DNA of 64,000 nt from Jaminaea rosea (lineage: Eukaryota > Basidiomycota > Exobasidiomycetes > Microstromatales). The DNA lies in NCBI RefSeq assembly GCF_003144245.1, contig NW_020289989.1, positions 124,001-188,000 on the forward strand, in the 5' to 3' direction. The position numbers and the translations under genes are program-made. Every line of letters starts with the position of its first letter. The first letter of the stretch is position 1. This document shows positions 42,948 to 55,260 of the stretch, in pieces. The notes beneath the pieces were generated by a model. It did not search any database, was not told where the DNA came from, and saw only the letters and a program-made list of their open reading frames with translations.

Positions 42948-44439
42948 TCAGGCGACAAGTAGCAAGCTGAGCAATCCGCCGACCAGAAGCGCTACCACAA
43001 TCCTCAACAGCATTTGACCACCATCACCTCCTACCTTGACTGCCGCGCTCTTGGCCTGCGTGTCGTTCCCTGCCGATGGACTGGGACTGCTCACGCTTAG
43101 TGTGTCGGTCCCGTTGGTAGCCTGGTTCAGATTCACGAAGCCCGCCCCAACGCCCGCTTGCTTCACCTGATCTGAGATCTTCCCATCCCCAAAGGCCTTC
43201 CCTCCGCACATCTGCAGCATCGACTTCTTAATCGAGCTCCCATCAGGTAGGGTCTTGCTCTCATTCTTGTACGCAGGATAGAAGAGCTGGGTCAGCATAG
43301 CCTTGTGGCAGTCAGAGCAGAGTAGATCCTTCTGCATCGCCTGAACCTTCTTGTCCTTCGAAGCGGACAGCTTCTTCAAGACAGGCGTCCAGTAGGCAGG
43401 ATCATTGCTTTGCATCTGAAAGAAGCCATTCAGTCCCATGTTGGAGCCCGTCATGTTTTGCAGACCAGCAAAGAGTTGCAGACTGCACAGTGGGTGACCT
43501 TGAATCGTGGTAGTTCCGGGTGGGCTGTTGTCCCCGGGGAGAGTGACCGCAGAGGGGTCCGAGGTTGGAGTGGTCATGTTCACTAGACAGGCCATATCAC
43601 GCTGCGTGGCGTAAGAGGAGAGGAAGCGAGAAAGGAGAGCCGCCGAGCTGGTAGTCGAGCTCAGCTCTTGCTTACTGCAGCCTTTGGTGAGGGTGGCGAG
43701 GGAGCTGTTGAGCGTCGAGGGATTGCAGACCGGGCGGATACAGAGCGTCTACGGGCGAGGTCTAAGGTCAGCACGGCCAATGCTTCGGAGCGACCAAGTC
43801 GACGACACTCACCTGCGACAAGTACTTGCCCATTGGCCCAATCAAGCTCGCGTTGTCGCCACCTCCTCCACGTGCTCCACTCAGAAGGGGCGCCAGAGTG
43901 TCATCGGTAGTCAAATCATCCAAGCCCATGCACTGAGCAAGGTCTTGCGTTCCAACAATCTGGCCAATGGCCGTACTGCAGTTCTGGCTGACACCGCCCA
44001 TGGCACCCTTTGAGGCGCTCCCAGAGGGAGAAGGCGAGGCAGCAGCAGCGGCAGATGCGCCAGAGGGTGCCACGGCAGGCTGTGCGACGCCTTGACTTTT
44101 CTTGGGGCTGGAGGCAGAGGAGGGATCGGCCTGCTTTGCGAGTTGAGCCTGCTCGTCCGGCGAGGATACAATGCGCGCGGCCGCGATGTGGTTATGTTCC
44201 TTGGCGGCGCAACGCTTGCGGCTGCCAGCGTGAAGCACAGTCTGAGAATGGGGATTGTTGCGGTGGTTGACGTGGACATTGCGTGCCTCTTGCCACACGC
44301 CGCTACTGCGGCCGGTCAGGCGACCATTGTTGTCCACCTGGGCCAGGTCGGCTGCTGTAGGCGCCACCAGGACGCATATGGAGAGGCAGCAGAGGATCAA
44401 AGTGGCGCTGAGTCGCAGGAGTGAAGCTGAAGAGCGCAT
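42948..44439 (-). CDS. Secreted DUF7729-like protein, array member A, probably GPI-anchored
   Basis: Exons 43813-44439 and 42948-43748 give 475 residues. A signal peptide (LSATLILCCLSICVLVAPTA) is followed by a basic, disordered spacer of about 110 residues. The cysteine framework then starts: NCSTAIGQIVGTQDLAQC, the exon junction YLSQ-TLCIRPVC, GCSKQEL, MACLVNM, HPLCSLQLFAGL, CSDCHKAMLTQLFY and QMCGGKAFGDG. After a Ser/Asn-rich linker the C-terminus is hydrophobic (LLRIVVALLVGGLLSLLLVA), which fits a GPI-anchor signal. The C-x2-C...CG pattern resembles fungal DUF7729, whose function I do not know. It shares intron position, phase and cysteine order with the next gene upstream. Confidence 0.75.
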
Positions 44440-44987
44440 GATCTTCCAGAAATACGAGGAGTGTGGGGAATAGGAAGGAAAGAATGTGCATCGAACGGGG
44501 GATAGATAGCGAACAGACAGTGCTCAAGCATGAGCGGGGGTGAAGGCGTCGATGACGATGACCTGGGGTACGAGCGTCAGTGGTCTTTCGCTTCCTCTCC
44601 TCTCGCGCAGGGACGGCGGAAACAATTCATTCACACTGATTTTCGAAGAGGGGTAGCGACGCCAATTGCGGTAGTGGCCGAAAGGGGTGACCCCTGGTGC
44701 CAAGATGGGTCGTGCGGGCGGCGATTCGTATGTTTGATGTTGAGGAGCGTAGTACGCGCTTGGACCCCTTCGCAAAATTACGTAGGCTCAAAGTGGCGCC
44801 GACGCATTGGGAAGCAGCGCTCAGACCTCCTTCAAGACGCCTGACTACTGGCTTGAACAGATCGAACAATGAGATAGAGAAGTCAGGTGAGGCAGGTATG
44901 TACAGAGTGGCCGATCTGAGAAGAGCGAATTTCAGTCATCACAGAAACAGAGCGGAGATCAGAGAGGCTGGACGCATAGTAACTCTC
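44440..44987. other. Spacer between array members A and B
   Basis: About 550 bp. Frames here reach about 100 codons but show no signal peptide or cysteine framework. It should hold the promoter of member A and the 3' UTR of member B. Confidence 0.45.
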
Positions 44988-46314
44988 TCAAATCATTAGC
45001 CCACCAACGAACGCCCCCACGACGCCAATGAACGGAGCAGCTCCCCATCGGGCACCCTCCACCTTCGCTACGCTCATGCTTGCTCCATTTCCGTGCTTCG
45101 TCCCGTTTACCGCCTGGCTCTGAGCTGACGATGCCCCGTTGCTATGGTCATTGATCCCCGGTCCCGTCCTGATTTCCACAGTCTTGGGCATCTCTCCATC
45201 GACAAACGCCTCGCCACAATTCTGTACCAGGAAACGACGAGCGAAAGGTGCTGCCTTTCCTGTCAACTGGGCAGATGTAGCAGGAAGGTCATATGGGTCC
45301 TCGTTGGCATCCAAGGTGGCATTAGGACCGGCGGCAGTCGCATCCTTGAGCTTCCCGCCGAAGAGGTAATTGACGGAAGCCTTGTGACATTCCGTACTGA
45401 ATACCTCTTTCACAGCACCCGTACCATTCTTTGTCACCTTCTCACTAATCTCCCGCATCAAGGCGTGGTCCACCATTTTCATCCTGACCAGAGTCTCAGA
45501 GTCAAAGACGACATCCGTGTGCGCTTCGATGGCTTTGAGGAGCTTGATGAAGCAAAGAGCATTGCCTCCAAGGCTGGCCGTGGGATGCTCTGGAGGCGGG
45601 CCAGCGAGCAGGTTGACAAGGCAGGAGATATTGCGTTGGAGCTGATAGGAGGAGATAAGCAGCGTGAGGAAGGTCGCTTCGGACGGTTCTGGCGCAGAAG
45701 AAGGCGCAGCGGCCTTGCCTTTGTCATCGTCGTCATTGTCTTGGTCCTTGCCGTTTTTATCGGCGTCATCATCGTCTTCGTCCGTCGAGTGTGAGCCAGC
45801 ATCACTGCAATTTGCTCCAAGCTTAAGGATGCCGTCGTTGAGCACGTCAGGTGCACAACTTGGAGCGGGGCAGAACGTCTATTGTCATTGTGAATCAAAG
45901 TCAGCTAGATGCTGCCACAACGCCTCGCTCGCTGCTCTGACTCACCTGCCCTAGATAGTCTCCAAATTGCCAAGCTACACTCTCTCCGGGCTTGCCTACG
46001 GTCGCCTGCAACGCGCTGTACTTGTCGTTGGTCAGTCCGAGACACTTGTCGAGCTCCTGAATGCTTGTGAGTATGGAGACAGCGGCGGAACAGTTCTTGG
46101 AAGGAATGATCTGAGGGCCAAGACCGTTGACAACGGGAAGGTGGCCGATGCTGATAGGAATGTGAATGGGTAGGGGCGGAGGTCTAGTGATATTGTCTGC
46201 AATTGATGGCTGGTTGCCGGGCTCAATAGTCTGATTCTGAGGAGGGTCGGCAAGGACTCCTTTGACGAGTGCTGCAGCGAGGGCGAAGATGCTGAGGCGA
46301 AGAGGTGCGAGCAT
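44988..46314 (-). CDS. Secreted DUF7729-like protein, array member B, probably GPI-anchored
   Basis: Exons 45946-46314 and 44988-45878 give 419 residues. There is a signal peptide (LRLSIFALAAALVKGVLA), then NCSAAVSILTSIQELDKC, a phase-0 junction YLGQ-TFCPAPSC identical in place to member A, an Asp-rich insert (about 15 Asp in 30 residues), ISCLVNLLAG, GNALCFIKLLKAIEAHTD, then FSTECHKASVNYLFG and QNCGEAFVDG. The C-terminus is hydrophobic (FIGVVGAFVGGLMI), consistent with a GPI signal. In the C-x2-C motif the first Cys is replaced by Ser (codon 45396-45398, with the second Cys at 45387-45389), so one disulfide present in the other members is probably lost. Confidence 0.75.
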
Positions 46315-46741
46315 CGTGTCCGTCGCTAGGTGCTGAACAGGCCTTCGGATGGGCGTGGAGAGAAGTCAAGGTGTGCCTCTTGCTTTGCTTTATGGCTGGT
46401 TACCAAGCCCACGTCTGCACCATGACCCTGTCTTGAACCTGAGAGCGTTTTCAGAGGAGGAGCGGAGGAAAGATCGGCCCGACAGTGAAGGCAGACTTGG
46501 AGGACGGCGGCATGGCGGCGGCCCGTCGAGCACCTCCGCCAGCCGCTGGCGGCTGCTCGAGGATGTCTTGCATGTTAGTGACACATCATCCTGAGCACCC
46601 CCTTTCTATGGGCGAGCAGCGCCTCATACTGTAGCCGGATCACGATGAATAGCATATGTATTGCAAGTGAGAGAACGATACGATATCGCAGGCACCGGTA
46701 GAAGCACCGCACGTCAAACCCTCACTACCGTACAATACCCA
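46315..46741. other. Spacer between array members B and C
   Basis: About 430 bp with no supported gene. It presumably carries the promoter of member B and the 3' UTR of member C. Confidence 0.45.
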
Positions 46742-47203
46742 CTAGTGGACGAAGAGCGGCGCCGTCACGACGAAGAGCACAGTGAATAAGACCGCATCAA
46801 AGACCAGGCCAAATTCCAACGCCTCCCCAAGAGTCATGGTGATTGTGTTGCTTGACGTCATGCTTGCATTCAGCGGTGACACAGAGCTTGCGCTGGTTTG
46901 AGAGGGCTCTTCTTTCGCTGTCGTCAGGACGTCCGTGCGATTGGTCGCGGCGTCGCTGGGCAGTATTGCGCTCTTTATCTGTTCTTCCACGCTTTGAGTC
47001 TCCGCAGCCATCTGTAGCCCAGTGCTTGGCATCGTAAAGGGCTTCTGCTTCGCGAGATTGCGGCTATCGAGAGTCTGAGCGTGGGCGGCCTTTGACGCCA
47101 GGAGAGCAAGAGACAGCAGTGCAACGAGCGAAGGGAGGACTCGCAACCTTAATGTCCCTTCTTTTTGGCATAAAGCTCGATGATGATGGCGTCTCAAAGG
47201 CAT
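46742..47203 (-). CDS. Short secreted protein, array member C, lacking the cysteine domain
   Basis: A single exon encodes 153 residues from the ATG at 47203; the frame is open to 47272, which would add 23 residues. It has a basic start and a signal peptide (LPSLVALLSLALLASKAAHA), a Ser/Thr/Asn-rich middle with several N-x-S/T sites, and the hydrophobic tail DAVLFTVLFVVTAPLFVH. That tail resembles the last residues of member D (DVLLFTVALAVGPTLLI). Apart from one Cys in the N-terminal region, the cysteine framework of its neighbours is absent. It looks like a paralogue that kept its secretion and anchoring ends but lost its core, although independent origin is possible. Confidence 0.55.
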   Translation of the reverse strand: MPLRRHHHRALCQKEGTLRLRVLPSLVALLSLALLASKAAHAQTLDSRNLAKQKPFTMPSTGLQMAAETQSVEEQIKSAILPSDAATNRTDVLTTAKEEPSQTSASSVSPLNASMTSSNTITMTLGEALEFGLVFDAVLFTVLFVVTAPLFVH

Positions 47204-47577
47204 GGTCGACGATGCATTGATTGGTGAAGAAGGGAAGACAGACAAACGTGCGCTTGACAGACGGTCGACCATCGGACCGCTCTGTCGCTAGCCGTTTGAA
47301 TTGCAGCGTTTCGTACCGCTTTCTCAGGGGCCGTAGCCGTCGGTGCTTACCGTCTCCATCATATTGCCGTGGCCCTTCGACTTAGCAACGCAGGCAAGCT
47401 GAGGCGTCATTCGAATTGATTGTGAAGAGAATGATCAACGATTCGAGACCACAATTCGAAGGGGCAGAGTCAAAGAAGAGTTTGAGAAGGGAAGGCGCGA
47501 GGCTATGTCATCTGTCCATGTATCCCTCTGCTCACGCTACGAGCAGCTGGGCCACCCGCTCGCCCCTCCTGCTCCGC
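47204..47577. other. Spacer between array members C and D
   Basis: About 370 bp with no supported gene. It is pyrimidine/purine-mixed sequence expected to carry the promoter of member C. Confidence 0.4.
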
Positions 47578-48955
47578 TCAGATGAGGAGCGTGGGTCCCA
47601 CAGCCAGCGCAACAGTGAAGAGGAGCACGTCCAGCAACATCCCCGTTTGCAAATGTCTGACGCTAGGCGCAGCCCCATTAGCCTTAGTGGCGGCCTGTGA
47701 TGTCGTGCCGTTGGTAGTGGGATCCGTAGTGGCCGGAGCATCAGTTGAGTTGAACTGGACGGTGTTGTCGGCACCATTGGTCGTACCATTGGCGCTCGAC
47801 GTAGAGCCAGGGTCAGAGCTGCCGCCCATGTCCATGCCGCCCATACCGCTGCCGGTGGTAGAAGAGCTCCCGATACCATGGCTTCCGCCTGCTGCGGCGA
47901 GGTCGTGGTCTGCTGACTGTGAGACCGTCTTGGGGAGTGGGTACTTGTCGTTGAGGAAATTGGGTCCTGGGCGTGCGTGGGCGAGCAGGAAGTCAGACTC
48001 GGCATGCCAACCCAATGTAGCTATACCGCCACCACTCACCGCAAAGATCGTTGGCCGTCTTGACAAAGTCATTCTTGACCTTGCTGTTCTTCACGTCCCT
48101 GACCAATGAATACTCTGCCTTCAAGCAGTCATTGCAGAAGGCAGCCAGCTGGACGTGACGATCCTGGTCTGACTCAGGTTTGCGCAGTACCTTCGCCAAA
48201 AGTCCCTGGTCGCCCTTGAAGAGGAGATTCATGGTGGGCAGGTCAAATGTGACGCCCTTCGTCCTCTCTACGCCATCCAAGAGTTGGGCAAAGCAGAGCG
48301 GATGGCCATTGATTGAGCTGTCGGCTTTCTCGAAAGCGGTGTTGTTGGTGAGACAGCCTGCGGTGCGGATAGCGGTGTAGGAGGACATGCCTGACACGAG
48401 GAAGCCTGCGGGTGACTTCTCCTTGTTGAGGTCCTGCTGAGTGCACGAGGTGCTGAGGGCGTGCAGGTTGATCTGGATGGATTGCTGCGAGCAGGCGGGG
48501 CGACCGCAGAGGGCCTGCGAACGTGAAAGAGAAGAAGAGTTAGAGCGAGGCGTAGATGAACAGAGCAGTGCAGCCAACTCACGTCGACCGAAAAGATGGC
48601 AGCATTCTGGAGTAGGCTCTGGTTCTGACGGTTGTCGAAGAAGCTGCAGGATGGACGGAAGATGTATGGTGAGCGCGAGCTGCGAAGCCGACTCGCTAGC
48701 TTCTCGAGCTCACAGATGCGTGAAGTTCCTCTGTCCGCTGAAGTTGAGGCAGCGGTCAAGCTCTTTGTCTGCGTAGACGCCTTTGAGTGCGCTGGCACAC
48801 TTGGGCGACAAGGCGGCCAGAGAAGCCTCGTAACTGGTCGCAGCTGGGTTCCACGACTGGCTCGCAACAGCACTCATGGCCAAAGGAGCAACGATGGCAG
48901 CGAAGGCCATGAATGTGCTGACTGCAGCCCAAGGCGAGTCGGTGCGTGACTGCAT
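47578..48955 (-). CDS. Secreted DUF7729-like protein, array member D, probably GPI-anchored
   Basis: Four exons (48714-48955, 48583-48643, 48040-48514, 47578-47966) give 388 residues. A signal peptide (FMAFAAIVAPLAMSAVA) precedes KCASALKGVYADKELDRC. A 61-nt exon encodes FFDNRQNQSLLQNAAIFSVD and joins ALCGRPACSQQSI, followed by STSC, TAGCLTNN, GHPLCFAQLLDGVERTKG, AAFCNDCLKAEYSLVRDV and the split NDLCG-GPNFLNDKYP. A Gly/Ser/Thr/Asn-rich linker and the hydrophobic end DVLLFTVALAVGPTLLI complete the GPI-protein layout. All ten framework cysteines are present. It has two introns that members A and B lack; the intron before ALC matches theirs in position. Confidence 0.75.
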
Positions 48956-49572: not shown

Positions 49573-52500
49573 CTACGTCCTGCCTTCCTCAGGCATCACG
49601 AAAGTCCCATTCGGGTACGCGACGGCCGCCCTCGTAAAGTCGCCCGGGCTTCCATCCGTGGTGTACGCCAGGCGGAGGTAGTGAGGCAAGGCCGCCACCG
49701 TAGCGTTGACGTTCGCGGCAGCGCTGCCACCAGGGAAGAAGGTCGCATTGCTCGCAGACGCATCCCCCACGAAGAAGCCCGCAATTTCTGCAAGATCGAA
49801 GTAGTTTTGCCCCGTCGCAGAAAGACGGAGGACATCGTCCACCATGAGATCGAACCCGTCGTAACTTTCGTTGGTCGGCAAGGGCTGCCAGTAGACGCGG
49901 CTTGCATTAGCGGGGGAGGAGGCATTGAGGCTGAGTAGGCCCGTGAAGTTGGCCGAGGCATTTAAGAAGGTGGGGATTCCGCCGCTATTGGAGACCGAGT
50001 CGCCTTGAATCACGGACTCGTCCTGGATAATCCCGTCGAAGCCCCAGCGGCCGACACCGTTGAGGAACATGCCAAGAAGGAAGGCGGACTGTGGGTGAGC
50101 GCAATGGGGCAGAAGAGGGTCAGTGACGGAGAGAAATCCAAGGCCGCTCGGCAGACTCACATAGATCAGGCTGAGCCTAGTCTCGAAAGCGGTGAATGGC
50201 AGCAGCACCAAAGCAATGATGTAGTGATGCAATCTCAGCCCCGTCTCGGGAACAGCGACCAGTAAACCGATGAGCACTCCACCTACCGCCGCAAGTGTGA
50301 GGTACTTGGGTAGGTAGCCCGTCTTGCGAATCACCCGCACCTGATTGACGGCAATGATGATGACCACCACGATGATGATGATCAGCGCTGTGAGAGCGCC
50401 GGGTTGCTGAGCGATATCGCTTGCCACCAACCTCTGCAGGGGCAGGTCCGCGAACACCACATTGAGCAGAACCCCCAGCCAGAAGAAGCCCAGCGTCCAT
50501 ATCGTGCGCTCAATCGGCAAGCGCGCAAATGCCGGCCAGACGAATCGGAACACCAGCCTCCAAAGGGCGTACCCCACGAACAAGGTAGGCAGGAAATCTC
50601 CCATTGGATCTCCAGGTGCAGGTGGGTAATCGCGAGGCTCGCTGGCATAATTGATGTGCCAGAAGCCCATGCTGATCAGCGTCCAAAGCCAAACGATCGG
50701 TCGCGGTTGGAGGACGAAGCCGACGAGAGAAGAGAAGACACTGTCGAGGATGTAGACGTCATTGCGGCGGTCTGTGCACTTTGAGGTGCGCGAGCCCTGC
50801 TGGAAGAAGTAGGAGACCTACATGCGCGGGGACAAGAGAGTGAATGGGGTGAGCGATTGAGTAAGATGCGGTCGCGTGTCGGACGACTCACTGGGAACGT
50901 CGAGTTGAAGTCCTCGCTCTTCAATCCGTTGGCGTCTTTCCCTACAAAGCCTGCGTAGCTCCCTGACAGCCACAACTGTCCACATCCACCAGTTCGATCA
51001 TCAATGATCCCGGCATGCACCGCCGCAGGGCAGACCCACGAGTCGCCTCGATACACGCCTCGTTCCTGGTCTCCTCCACCCACAATCAAGGGGGTGAAGT
51101 TGGGAAGCTCAGTTCCGACAGCTCGTGCCGCTCCCAAGACCGTTCCTGAGCAACCGCTGGGACAGCGAAAGGCAACGCTCGTGTTTTGACTGAATGGGCG
51201 GCAACTCTCGCCATCCACGCCGCAGCGTTCGTTCTGCGCCCAGTAGGTCGTAGTACAGCCGTAAAAGCTTGGTGTGACTTCGCTGCCGCTAGAGGCGGAG
51301 ACGACGGACGAGTCGGACCAGATGGATTTGACGAGGAAGGAAAAGCCGAGAAGCCATGCCACGTAGACGAGGAAGAGAAGCAGCCAATGCAAACGATTGG
51401 TGCGATACTCCCGCACAAGGTAGTGCTGCCAATGAGTGGTGGGGTGAGGGCGACGCGGGCCCGGCAGCCGGTCTTGATCTTGGCAACTCGCATGACCTTC
51501 AGCAGCGCTCCCGCCCATCTCTTCCAGCCGGAACGCCTCGCCGCTCATCCCTCTTCGCAGCCACGCAGGGCGCCTCCTTGCTGCTGCTGCTCGCCACCTG
51601 GCCGGCGTACTCCTCTTCTTAGGTTCCTCCGGCTCATCATCGTCCTCCTCATCAGAGGGTAGTTCCACACCCCCAGTCTCACGCCAAGCAACATGATCCG
51701 TCAAGCGCAGCCACGACTCCTCGATTCCCGCAAAGGGCCACCAGGGGTAGTGACGTATCGTGAGGACGTGGGCTGGGTGCGGTCCAGCAAACCAGCGCAG
51801 GGCGCGATGCAGGCGAGTGCGAGGTGGGCGAGTCGTTGATGACCGAGGCTGGGAGTTAGCCGAGTAGGTCGCGGCAGGGCCGTCCTCTTCGTCACGACCC
51901 AGCCCTCTTTCCAGCTCATGCGTCATCTGGATCTGATCCTGATCACCGGTCTCGTCGCTAATGACAAACTTTCCCTTGCTGACGCTACGCGAGGAGTATG
52001 AGGAAAGCATTGCTGGCCTAGGAGGGTCGACGGCTGTTGTCGTGCCGCTTGACCCTTCCGCTGTGCCCGAGGCAGAAGCGTCCCTTGAGGATGACGAAGA
52101 AGATCCCTGCGCGGCCTGCATGTCGTCGACGGTCGACCAAGCTGCCTCAGATGAGGTCGGGATGGCGGGGAGATTTGAATAGGCTACAACATCGTCGGCG
52201 GTGCGAATCGAATGCGAGTCGAAATTGAAATCCGGATCCAGAGAGTAAGGTGCCAGGTCATTGCATTGCTGGGCAGTAGATGCCGAAGAAGCAAACGTAA
52301 TAGTCGCACCCTTGAGGTCGTACATATAATTAGGTAAGGCGTTGGCGGTCTTGGCCTGAGCTGTTGAGCCGTCCATGCCGGTGCCGTGGACCGCAGACGA
52401 AGCGGAAGGCGTCTCTGCCCTCATCCTCTCTGCCAGACTCCTTGGATGCGTGACCCAAATGAGAGCCTTCCCTTCCTCCTCCCCAGCCGATTTTGCATCT

Positions 52501-54740
52501 CTCGCCGCACCAGCCACACCCGGCGTGCGTCTCCTCCTTCCACCCTCCCTGACCAGCCATCTGACGCTCAGCATATTCGTAGTCAGCGTCGTCCATCCTT
52601 TCTCGAATCCCATCAGCAAAGTGCTGAGTGTGTGCTGCGTCTGTCTTGGATTGCCAGAGAGCTGCATGGAGCGCCTCGCTTTCGCTGGATGGATGAAGTG
52701 TGGTTTGGACGCGGCGGGGACAGAGGGATTCTCATGCAAGGCGAGGTCTTCAAGACCGGCGAGGAGGGTACTGCGAAGGATGCTGGCGAAGTTCTGCCCT
52801 TCCTTGGTGCCGCACGACGCGGCTGGGGAAGTCGCGACGACTGAGCGCCAATCAAAGTCTACAACCTCTACCGGTAGAGACACGGCTTGCCGCACACGCA
52901 GGTCATGCTCGTAGCGCGATCCTTCCCAGAATTCTGCAGAGGAGGAGGCAGAGTCGAAAAGGCATCGTGCCCGAGCCTGCTCCCTCGGCCCTCCAACGAG
53001 GCGCATAATTTCGTCGAACTTGACACGCGCTTCACGGGTGCAGAGCAGGTGGAGCTGACCGTCTGCTCCCGTCGAAGAAGAGGATGAGAGATCCGCAGCT
53101 GCGTCTGCGAGATAGCCCATGAAGTCGCAGCCTGCAGTGCATTCCAGACCGAGTTGAGCAGCAAGGGCACGATTGTGGAGGAGCTTGCCTTGGTCGTCTT
53201 CATTGCCCTGATTCTCCTCTGCGCTGTCCTCGTGACCCTCAGCAGCAGCTTGCTTAGCCTCCATCGCCTCCTTGGCCTTCGCATTTGCCCGATCCTGCGC
53301 AGCAATGCTCTTGAGGCCGCCCTTTTTAAAGAGGCTCTGCAAGTCGAGCTTCGTACCCTCTCCCGCTTGGGGCAGCTTCATGTGCGTGATATCGCTGACC
53401 AGGGCTACGAGCGCCGAGACGTCCACGTTGACCTTCTGCGTCATGCGAAGCGGTTTGAGGCTCGAAGCCCTGCTGACCGGAGAAGGCAAGGCGGGCAAAG
53501 CAAGCATTGTAGGATCAAAGTCGTGTGCGCTGACCGGCAGGTGGAAGGGAGAGGAAGAGGCCGCCCATGTAGTGAGAGCGGTAGGAAGAATCTTCCCTCG
53601 TGGTGCGGTCAACTGCTGTCCTGGATCAGCAGCGGAGGAAAGGTGTACTCCTGGCAGCCTCGCGCAAAGATTGGAGAGGCACTGCAATCTGCGGTTGAAG
53701 CGCTCCTCTTCTGTTGAGGAAGTGAGGTAGTCCATGCTCAGGTACAGCGAGTCTTCGTTCGGAGGAGGAACGGGGAGGCGAGTGAGGACAACGTGGATTT
53801 GGATGGTGTCCTCTTCGCTGCTGCTGGAGTCGGGCGAGGGAGGGGGAGCTGCTGCCCGACAGGCTAGAAGTTCCTCAATCGTTCGCACAATGGAGCAGTT
53901 TGCCGTAGCCACGTCCAACTGCGCAAAGAGATGACCGCATGATGCAAGACGCTTGGCGCGACCTTCGCTCAGCCCCGAGCTGGCCAGGCCGGCATCATCA
54001 CCTTCGCTGCCTTCTTCGTCGCTAGAATCCATCGCCCCTGCGCCCAGCTCGCTCTCCGCGACTCTCAGCTCGGCGAGCAGGCTGTTCTTCTTGATCGTGA
54101 GCAGACGAGTCCAGCTGCGCCCTCCATCAGCCACAATATCGACTTTACCCATCTTCGCTCCCTTGCCCTTTGCCATCTTCGCCTTGGAGATGCGTCCTGC
54201 ACCAGGCTTCCTGCGGCGCTGCCTCGCAGCCATGACCGCCGGATCCTGTCCTTCTGGCGGCACCACAATGGAGGCATTTAGCTCCGTGACAGGGCCCCTC
54301 GTCAGAGAGACAAGCAGCACCTGCTCCCAAAAGCTGCATAAGCTCGGCGCATTAGTCGTTGCCGGGCATGGTGCATCCTGTCCCTCTGGACTCTCCTCCG
54401 CAATTCGAGCTAGATGATCCACCTCTCTCGCGACGGCAGTCCTGAAACTACGGAGGCCCTGGACAGCCTCGATATTACTTCGGACGCCTGAGCGGAACTC
54501 TGCCCAGGCTTCACCCTCTACTGGTACGCGGGCGTGGCTGACATCGGAGAGGGTGGGCTGTATTGCTGATCCGGTGGAGGGTGCGAAGCCTAGTGAGGGG
54601 ATGCCGGTGTAGGTCGAGGAGGAGAGGGAGGACCATTCTTGGCGAGCATCTGTGAGTTGTTGGAGAGAGATGAGGACGGCGCGCAGAGCTAGATGGGTTG
54701 CCCAGATTGGTGGAGTGGGAGCACCAGACGGAGCAGCCAT
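49573..54740 (-). CDS. DUF1308 (C7orf25-like) and LCCL-domain membrane protein fused in one reading frame
   Basis: Exons 50892-54740, 50161-50817 and 49573-50088 give 1,673 residues. Residues about 1-780 resemble DUF1308/UPF0415 proteins (animal C7orf25): VNVDVSALVALVSDITH near 437, a CTAGCDFMGYL segment, FEKGWTTLTTNMLSVRWLV and LIWVTHPRSLAERM near 760. A disordered linker follows. From about 1,030 it reads as a fungal LCCL-domain membrane protein: HPAHVLTIRHYPWWPFAG, a first membrane span (LLLFLVYVAWLLGFSFLV), an extracellular Cys-rich LCCL domain (RGDSWVCPAAVHAGIIDD, GFVGKDANGLKSEDF), then, after splicing, about eight spans including FWHINYASEPRDYPPAPGDP and FLLGMFLNGVGRWGFDG. The 3.85-kb first exon has no stop. 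Fusion or two genes read as one cannot be settled from sequence alone. Confidence 0.7.
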
Positions 54741-55260
54741 CTTGGGCGTAGAAGCCGCGACGAGGGAGAAGGAGGGGATGATGAGTGCGAGATGCAACTC
54801 CGGTTGGGTGCAGATCTAGATGATGAGGATTTTGTAAAAGATGAGGAGCAAGGCGAGGCCCAACCGCCCTGATGGTGGTGAGACTAAAGTAAGCCAATCC
54901 AAGCCAAGCCCAGTCGCCGCTTCGGCGCCCACCTTCCCGTTCGACCCGCACGCAACTCTCCCAATCGACGCCAGTCCGCCGCCCGGCGCCTCGGCGGCGG
55001 GGCGCAGTCTCAACGTCCGTCCTCGCTCTTTCCCTTACCCGCCCACAGCCCGCGGCATCACCTCCTACACGAAGCTGGGTTACAATGAGATCACGATAGC
55101 AATGTCCAAATAAAGATGGCATTTGACGACGACCCAAAAGAATAGATGGCAGTCACGGCTCGAATTGCCCCTCTGTGGTATCTGTTTGGGCACCAAGCCC
55201 ATTCTGCCCGCCCTCGCAGCTTCCTCTCTTACGTCTAATCTAATCGCCTCGCCGCCTACA
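54741..55260. other. Upstream region of the DUF1308-LCCL gene and downstream region of the PalI-like gene
   Basis: About 520 bp, with no gene I can support. Frames up to about 200 codons on the minus strand here are Arg/Pro-rich continuations without domains. Confidence 0.45.

Follow-up and report, generated by a model that had tools for sequence, protein, structure and literature searches.

Introduction

DUF7729 (Pfam PF24855) is, as its name states, a domain of unknown function, and a literature search, with the DUF7729 name included among the terms, found the family named in none of the titles and abstract openings listed. In the fungus Jaminaea rosea, its canonical form is carried by a single-exon gene (C5:698213-699187; 325 aa, 33.3 bits), the protein of which ends in a hydrophobic C-terminal tail. 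With this canonical protein as query, a database search recovered 45 matches within an E limit of 0.01, of which one, at 99% identity, probably belongs to this species or one near it. Many of these matches are unnamed; the named sources are smut-type fungi, with a few Agaricomycetes and Rhodotorula paludigena besides. The closest named matches, which point to a Microstromatales-like fungus, belong to Parajaminaea phylloscopi (64% identity), Jaminaea pallidilutea (61%), and Sympodiomycopsis kandeliae (60%). When 44 of these proteins are aligned, eight cysteine columns are invariant and two are conserved in at least 90%, and AlphaFold2 applied to the same 44 proteins predicts a mostly helical structure (mean pLDDT 70.9, pTM 0.64). 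The other described system suited to comparison is CFEM, a fungal domain of eight cysteines whose proteins are often GPI-anchored.

The window analyzed here is a stretch of 64,000 nucleotides of the J. rosea genome (contig NW_020289989.1, positions 124,001 to 188,000), and positions given without a contig refer to it. It contains an array of minus-strand genes, designated A, B, C, and D, and a further relative, paralog E, lies on contig C7 (G000:C7:68897-69973). The best explanation overall, which we hold to be probable, is that A, B, and D arose by an old tandem expansion, related to DUF7729 and accompanied by the D-like paralog E, and encode, like E, disulfide-locked surface proteins, either anchored or free. 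This belongs to a known class, in which the paralogs of a fungal surface-protein family expand and diverge. Since one genome holds the canonical gene, the three diverged copies in tandem, and a copy lacking the anchor, it offers a natural set for studying the function of the ectodomain and the role of anchoring.

Organization of the array

An earlier note, made from the DNA sequence, had described four minus-strand genes at 42948-48955, and four minus-strand gene models with exactly these coordinates were obtained. Their features are as follows:

42948..43748, minus strand: gene A exon 2, with cysteines 3-10 of the core, the stalk, and the hydrophobic C-terminal tail
43749..43812, minus strand: gene A intron, 64 nt, GT-AG, phase 0, directly before TLC; same site in B, D, and E
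43813..44439, minus strand: gene A exon 1, with a signal-peptide-like start, a long low-complexity spacer, and cysteines 1-2
44988..45878, minus strand: gene B exon 2, with an acidic insert, cysteines 3-7, 9, and 10 (the eighth is Ser), and the hydrophobic tail
45879..45945, minus strand: gene B intron, 67 nt, GT-AG, phase 0, directly before TFC
45946..46314, minus strand: gene B exon 1, with a signal-peptide-like start and cysteines 1-2
46742..47203, minus strand: ORF C, with a signal-peptide-like start, a Ser/Thr-rich middle, and a hydrophobic tail, without the cysteine core
47578..47966, minus strand: gene D exon 4, with a Ser/Thr-rich stalk and the hydrophobic tail; NDLCG-PNFL is continuous across the junction, as in E
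47967..48039, minus strand: gene D intron 3, 73 nt, GT-AG, not in E
48040..48514, minus strand: gene D exon 3, with cysteines 3-10
48515..48582, minus strand: gene D intron 2, the shared intron, 68 nt, phase 0, directly before ALC
48583..48643, minus strand: gene D exon 2; the THL/FFDN junction is identical to that of E
48644..48713, minus strand: gene D intron 1, 70 nt, GT-AG, common to D and E
48714..48955, minus strand: gene D exon 1, with a signal-peptide-like start and cysteines 1-2

After joining, gene A (two exons) encodes 475 aa, gene B (two exons) 419 aa, and gene D (four exons) 388 aa, and all introns of the three genes are GT-AG and 64-73 nt long. The intron that had been noted just before the TLC/TFC/ALC motif of A, B, and D is present in each, always in phase 0, and occurs likewise in paralog E. 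Splice support for A, B, and D is comparative and comes from setting their sequences against paralog E. The joins of D are backed by this comparison, the spliced NDLCG-PNFL of D across intron 3 corresponding to an uninterrupted NDLCGPNFL in E, and the intron at THL/FFDN is common to both genes; an additional intron of E falls at a point where D is uninterrupted.

The array is situated approximately 167-173 kb into a contig of 472 kb, away from the contig end. Among the window ORFs scanned, five of eight have a Pfam match at E up to 0.001, and the matches include a mitochondrial carrier, an LCCL-domain protein, and a TRP-type channel. Beside the array, two adjoining minus-strand ORFs at 49573-54797 both contain membrane-like stretches, with the LCCL domain in the larger, and may constitute one spliced gene. 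Within gene B, an acidic, Asp-rich insert at 45690-45800 separates cysteines 5 and 6, an insert that is lacking in A, D, and E.

ORF C differs from its neighbors. It is a single ORF of 153 aa, or 176 aa if an upstream ATG is used, with a codon score of 0.084 bits per codon in frame; the other frames of the locus score -0.165 and -0.049 (forward) and -0.087, 0.050, and -0.166 (reverse). Although it had been counted as a cysteine protein, its only Cys lies near the N-terminus, and a whole-genome search at E up to 10 returned ORF C itself and four weak matches (0.297-2.51), with no family member among them. Because ORF C has one Cys and no family match, the array comprises three cysteine proteins rather than four. 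ORF C is possibly an orphan surface protein or a decayed array member. Decay, in which the cysteine core would have been lost and the signal peptide, stalk, and anchor tail kept, agrees with the position of ORF C between B and D and with the resemblance of its C-terminal stretch to D, where a local score of 55 was attained in 7 of 300 trials with shuffled D. Such an origin is nevertheless unlikely, given that D, too, went unmatched in the genome search, that 60, 42, and 183 of 300 shuffles matched or exceeded the local scores against A, B, and E, respectively, and that hydrophobic and Ser/Thr-rich stretches, as found in ORF C, easily align through composition.

Homology and the cysteine frame

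Homology was examined through six-frame searches of the whole 16.6 Mb genome (21 contigs), for which E and the core regions of A, B, and D served as queries. The D core matched A at E 1.4e-10 and B at 3.4e-6, the A core matched D at 1.8e-11 and B at 9.7e-5, and the B core matched A at 2.6e-10 and D at 1.6e-8; taken together, the reciprocal genome-wide matches among A, B, D, and E span E-values from 9.7e-5 to 7.8e-71. These four genes are true homologues. The cores of D and E are 60% identical, and the other five pairs 25-31%. Local duplication, as had been suggested, is supported for A, B, and D. The description of the array as a family of cysteine proteins applies to these three genes and not to ORF C, and it leaves out two relatives beyond the window, namely paralog E and the canonical DUF7729 gene on contig C5.

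Ten aligned cysteine columns are found in A, B, D, and E, with the Ser at the eighth position of B as the sole exception; gene B has nine cysteines in total, an odd number. The first spacing, previously read as a variable C(8-19)C, does not vary, all four proteins having C-x15-C, and the C-x2-C ascribed to A, B, and D is found in A and D, as well as in E, but is replaced by S-x2-C in B.

An alignment of A, B, and D compared with the protein database yielded no homologue at E up to 0.01 among 7998 scored candidates, many of which may have been drawn by low-complexity words, and a search with residues 44-275 of D, which covered 773 candidates at a limit of E 10, likewise recovered no homologue. 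These candidates were limited to proteins 0.55-1.75 times the length of the query, so unspliced exon ORFs would have been missed. Residues 44-275 of D share 29 five-residue words with E, one with A, and none with B, and the canonical protein compared with that of Jaminaea shares 70; from these counts, a close orthologue of D in an annotated relative should have appeared, while a distant one would not. The A/B/D group is likely, though not proven, to be lineage-restricted.

Relationship to DUF7729

The resemblance to DUF7729 that had been proposed for the array holds for gene D, which matches PF24855 over residues 48-160 (113 residues) with 29.1 bits and E 9.9e-7, above the curated cut-off of 25 bits. 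None of the other three genes (A, B, and E) gave a DUF7729 match at E up to 1 in the Pfam scans; their connection is to D, through homology and the cysteine frame. We class the product of gene D with the DUF7729 proteins and treat A, B, and E as DUF7729-related, diverged relatives rather than members.

The features held in common with canonical DUF7729 proteins are a signal-peptide-like start, the order of the ten cysteines, near-equal first five cysteine gaps, and a hydrophobic C-terminal tail. The gaps are identical in D and E (16,35,5,16,30,20,53,3,28) and are 16,36,6,16,29,9,77,3,41 in the canonical gene of the same genome. When the cysteines of A, D, and E were placed at random, the first five gaps were as close to the canonical ones in 0 of 200000 placements for D, 0 of 200000 for E, and 6 of 200000 for A, and all nine gaps in 18 (D), 32 (E), and 101 (A) of 200000. 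The DUF7729-type frame of ten cysteines is thus found in A, D, and E, and B is without the eighth. Several differences accompany this likeness: A, B, D, and E carry introns, whereas the canonical gene consists of one exon; they have C-x4-C where the canonical protein has C-x5-C; their variable loops are longer; and paralog E, unlike canonical DUF7729 proteins, is without a hydrophobic tail. CFEM shares with these genes its fungal distribution and a small cysteine-rich domain in proteins that are often GPI-anchored, but it has eight cysteines against the ten of the A/D/E frame, and the Pfam scans of all five gene products, A to E, showed no CFEM domain within an E limit of 1.

A profile built from 44 of the 45 canonical proteins, with the fragment P0019 omitted, was compared with each gene product and with decoys, of which 500 were made per query. 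D scored 17.0 bits against 10.4 for its best decoy (450 scored), and E scored 10.7 bits against 7.0 (465 scored). The score of A was 4.1 bits, level with a best decoy of 4.0 (441 scored), and that of B was -0.8 bits, below a best decoy of 2.1 (262 scored); since these two scores lie at or below those of the decoys, A and B join DUF7729 only through D and E. In the reverse direction, an A-B-D-E profile reached a maximum of 9.2 bits on the 45 canonical proteins, and among 900 shuffles one scored 10.4 bits and the next 5.7. When profile was compared with profile, the scores were weak (probability 1.8 and 3.3%; E 0.027 and 0.013), though the first cysteines were aligned in register.

Weak profile-profile scores, a reverse search not clearly above its shuffles, and a DUF7729 match confined to D are what would be expected if A, B, D, and E were an unrelated secreted family of ten cysteines and the D match a chance similarity driven by these cysteines. 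We regard such a coincidence as very unlikely, however, since it would have to produce a match of E 9.9e-7 across 113 residues as well as first five gaps that are near-canonical in D and E and, less closely, in A. Moreover, the Pfam model also fails on P0014 and P0041, clear relatives that are 52% and 35% identical to the canonical protein, respectively; for this reason the model looks too narrow, and it is shown to miss real relatives.

Structure prediction was of mediocre quality, and comparison with solved structures gave no clear match. The model of D exon 3 is unreliable (pLDDT 55.5), and although its helix positions are similar to the canonical ones, its alignment held 11 canonical proteins, to which D exon 3 is 14-22% identical, so this model is not independent of the canonical prediction.

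Age and selection

In a tree that included 10 of the 45 canonical proteins, a branch with support of 100/100 has A, B, D, and E together on one side. D and E pair at 87/88, a fork that is not fully supported, and gene B forms a long branch. From the tree and the identities, the split between D and E is the youngest. A nucleotide comparison of the 9.9 kb E locus with the window gave one shared stretch, which corresponds to E exon 4 and D exon 3 and is 64% identical, and it revealed no common flanking sequence. We infer that the array lineages had already separated when a D-like gene was copied from one contig to another.

Substitution rates were estimated for the core region by NG86 alone. For D and E, dN is 0.36 and dS 1.73, giving an omega of approximately 0.20 (bootstrap 0.09-0.31, with 455 usable resamples out of 500), a value that is only rough because silent sites in this pair are near saturation, with 16 of 38 fourfold third positions identical. 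Omega lies below 0.35 in each of four segments, including the signal-peptide region (0.33). For the other five pairs, dN ranges from 0.80 to 1.08 and dS from 1.58 to 2.15 or is undefined; with silent sites saturated or nearly so, raw omega is 0.40 for A/B, 0.42 for A/E, 0.59 for A/D, and 0.61 for B/D, and is undefined for B/E. Silent sites are near or past saturation in every pair, and therefore neither the age nor the speed of divergence can be closely read.

The earlier note had interpreted the divergence as rapid and as typical of selection at a host or microbe interface. In its full form, this interpretation would make A, B, and D effector- or antigen-like proteins of such an interface, duplicated and diversified by positive selection, and the tandem arrangement, the presumed surface location, the identity of 25-31% in all pairs except D/E, and the lack of any database homologue of A, B, or D in the searches above are compatible with it. 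The omega values fit it poorly: that of D/E is about 0.20 in the core and remains low in all four segments, and raw values also stay below 1 in the remaining pairs for which dS is defined, saturated as these are. Positive selection was considered and is unsupported by these NG86 values, which makes an interface role of this kind improbable, although they leave room for single-site bursts of selection in the family. As far as sequence comparison can indicate, the evidence argues for duplications that are old and under constraint, rather than for a demonstrated rapid adaptive change.

Proposed membrane anchoring and function

Signal peptides and hydrophobic C-terminal ends had been attributed to A, B, C, and D, and inspection agrees, with signal-peptide-like starts and hydrophobic tails in all four; secretion and GPI anchoring were likewise judged by eye from the sequence. 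Paralog E, D-like in its core, has neither stalk nor hydrophobic tail, and its protein ends 29 residues past the last cysteine. A frame shift concealing an anchor tail was considered and rejected, as the three forward frames after the E stop, read by eye, contain no Ser/Thr stalk with a hydrophobic tail. Because A, B, and D as well as the canonical gene have tails, tail loss in E is the simpler reading.

If the old, DUF7729-related expansion is accepted, the proteins of A, B, D, and E would enter the secretory path, and five disulfides, fewer in B, would hold a mostly helical ectodomain in place. In A, B, and D, a glycosylated stalk with a predicted GPI anchor would attach this ectodomain to the membrane or wall; E would be released by free secretion. 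Exposed loops would have diverged, with the disulfide frame kept through purifying selection, and the proteins most likely act in a structural capacity, in wall architecture, or as ligand-contacting proteins of the cell surface.

The position of D intron 3 adds a further consideration. This intron lies directly after the last core cysteine, inside the codon of the next glycine, and its retention would bring the frame to a stop at 47993, approximately 15 residues past the last core cysteine and with one extra cysteine included. An anchorless form of D might, speculatively, arise in this manner. A doubtful extension of this idea, to which we give little weight, is that the subfamily switches between anchored and free states, with A, B, and D anchored, D soluble if intron 3 is retained, and E fixed as soluble; were this true, one ectodomain could serve at the cell surface in the first state and as a released ligand or decoy in the second.

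A short way downstream from paralog E, on the plus strand at approximately 70393-70762 of the same contig (G000:C7; L023 5894-6263), lies a candidate spliced gene for a small secreted cysteine-rich protein, the exons of which were read by eye and the start of which was checked.
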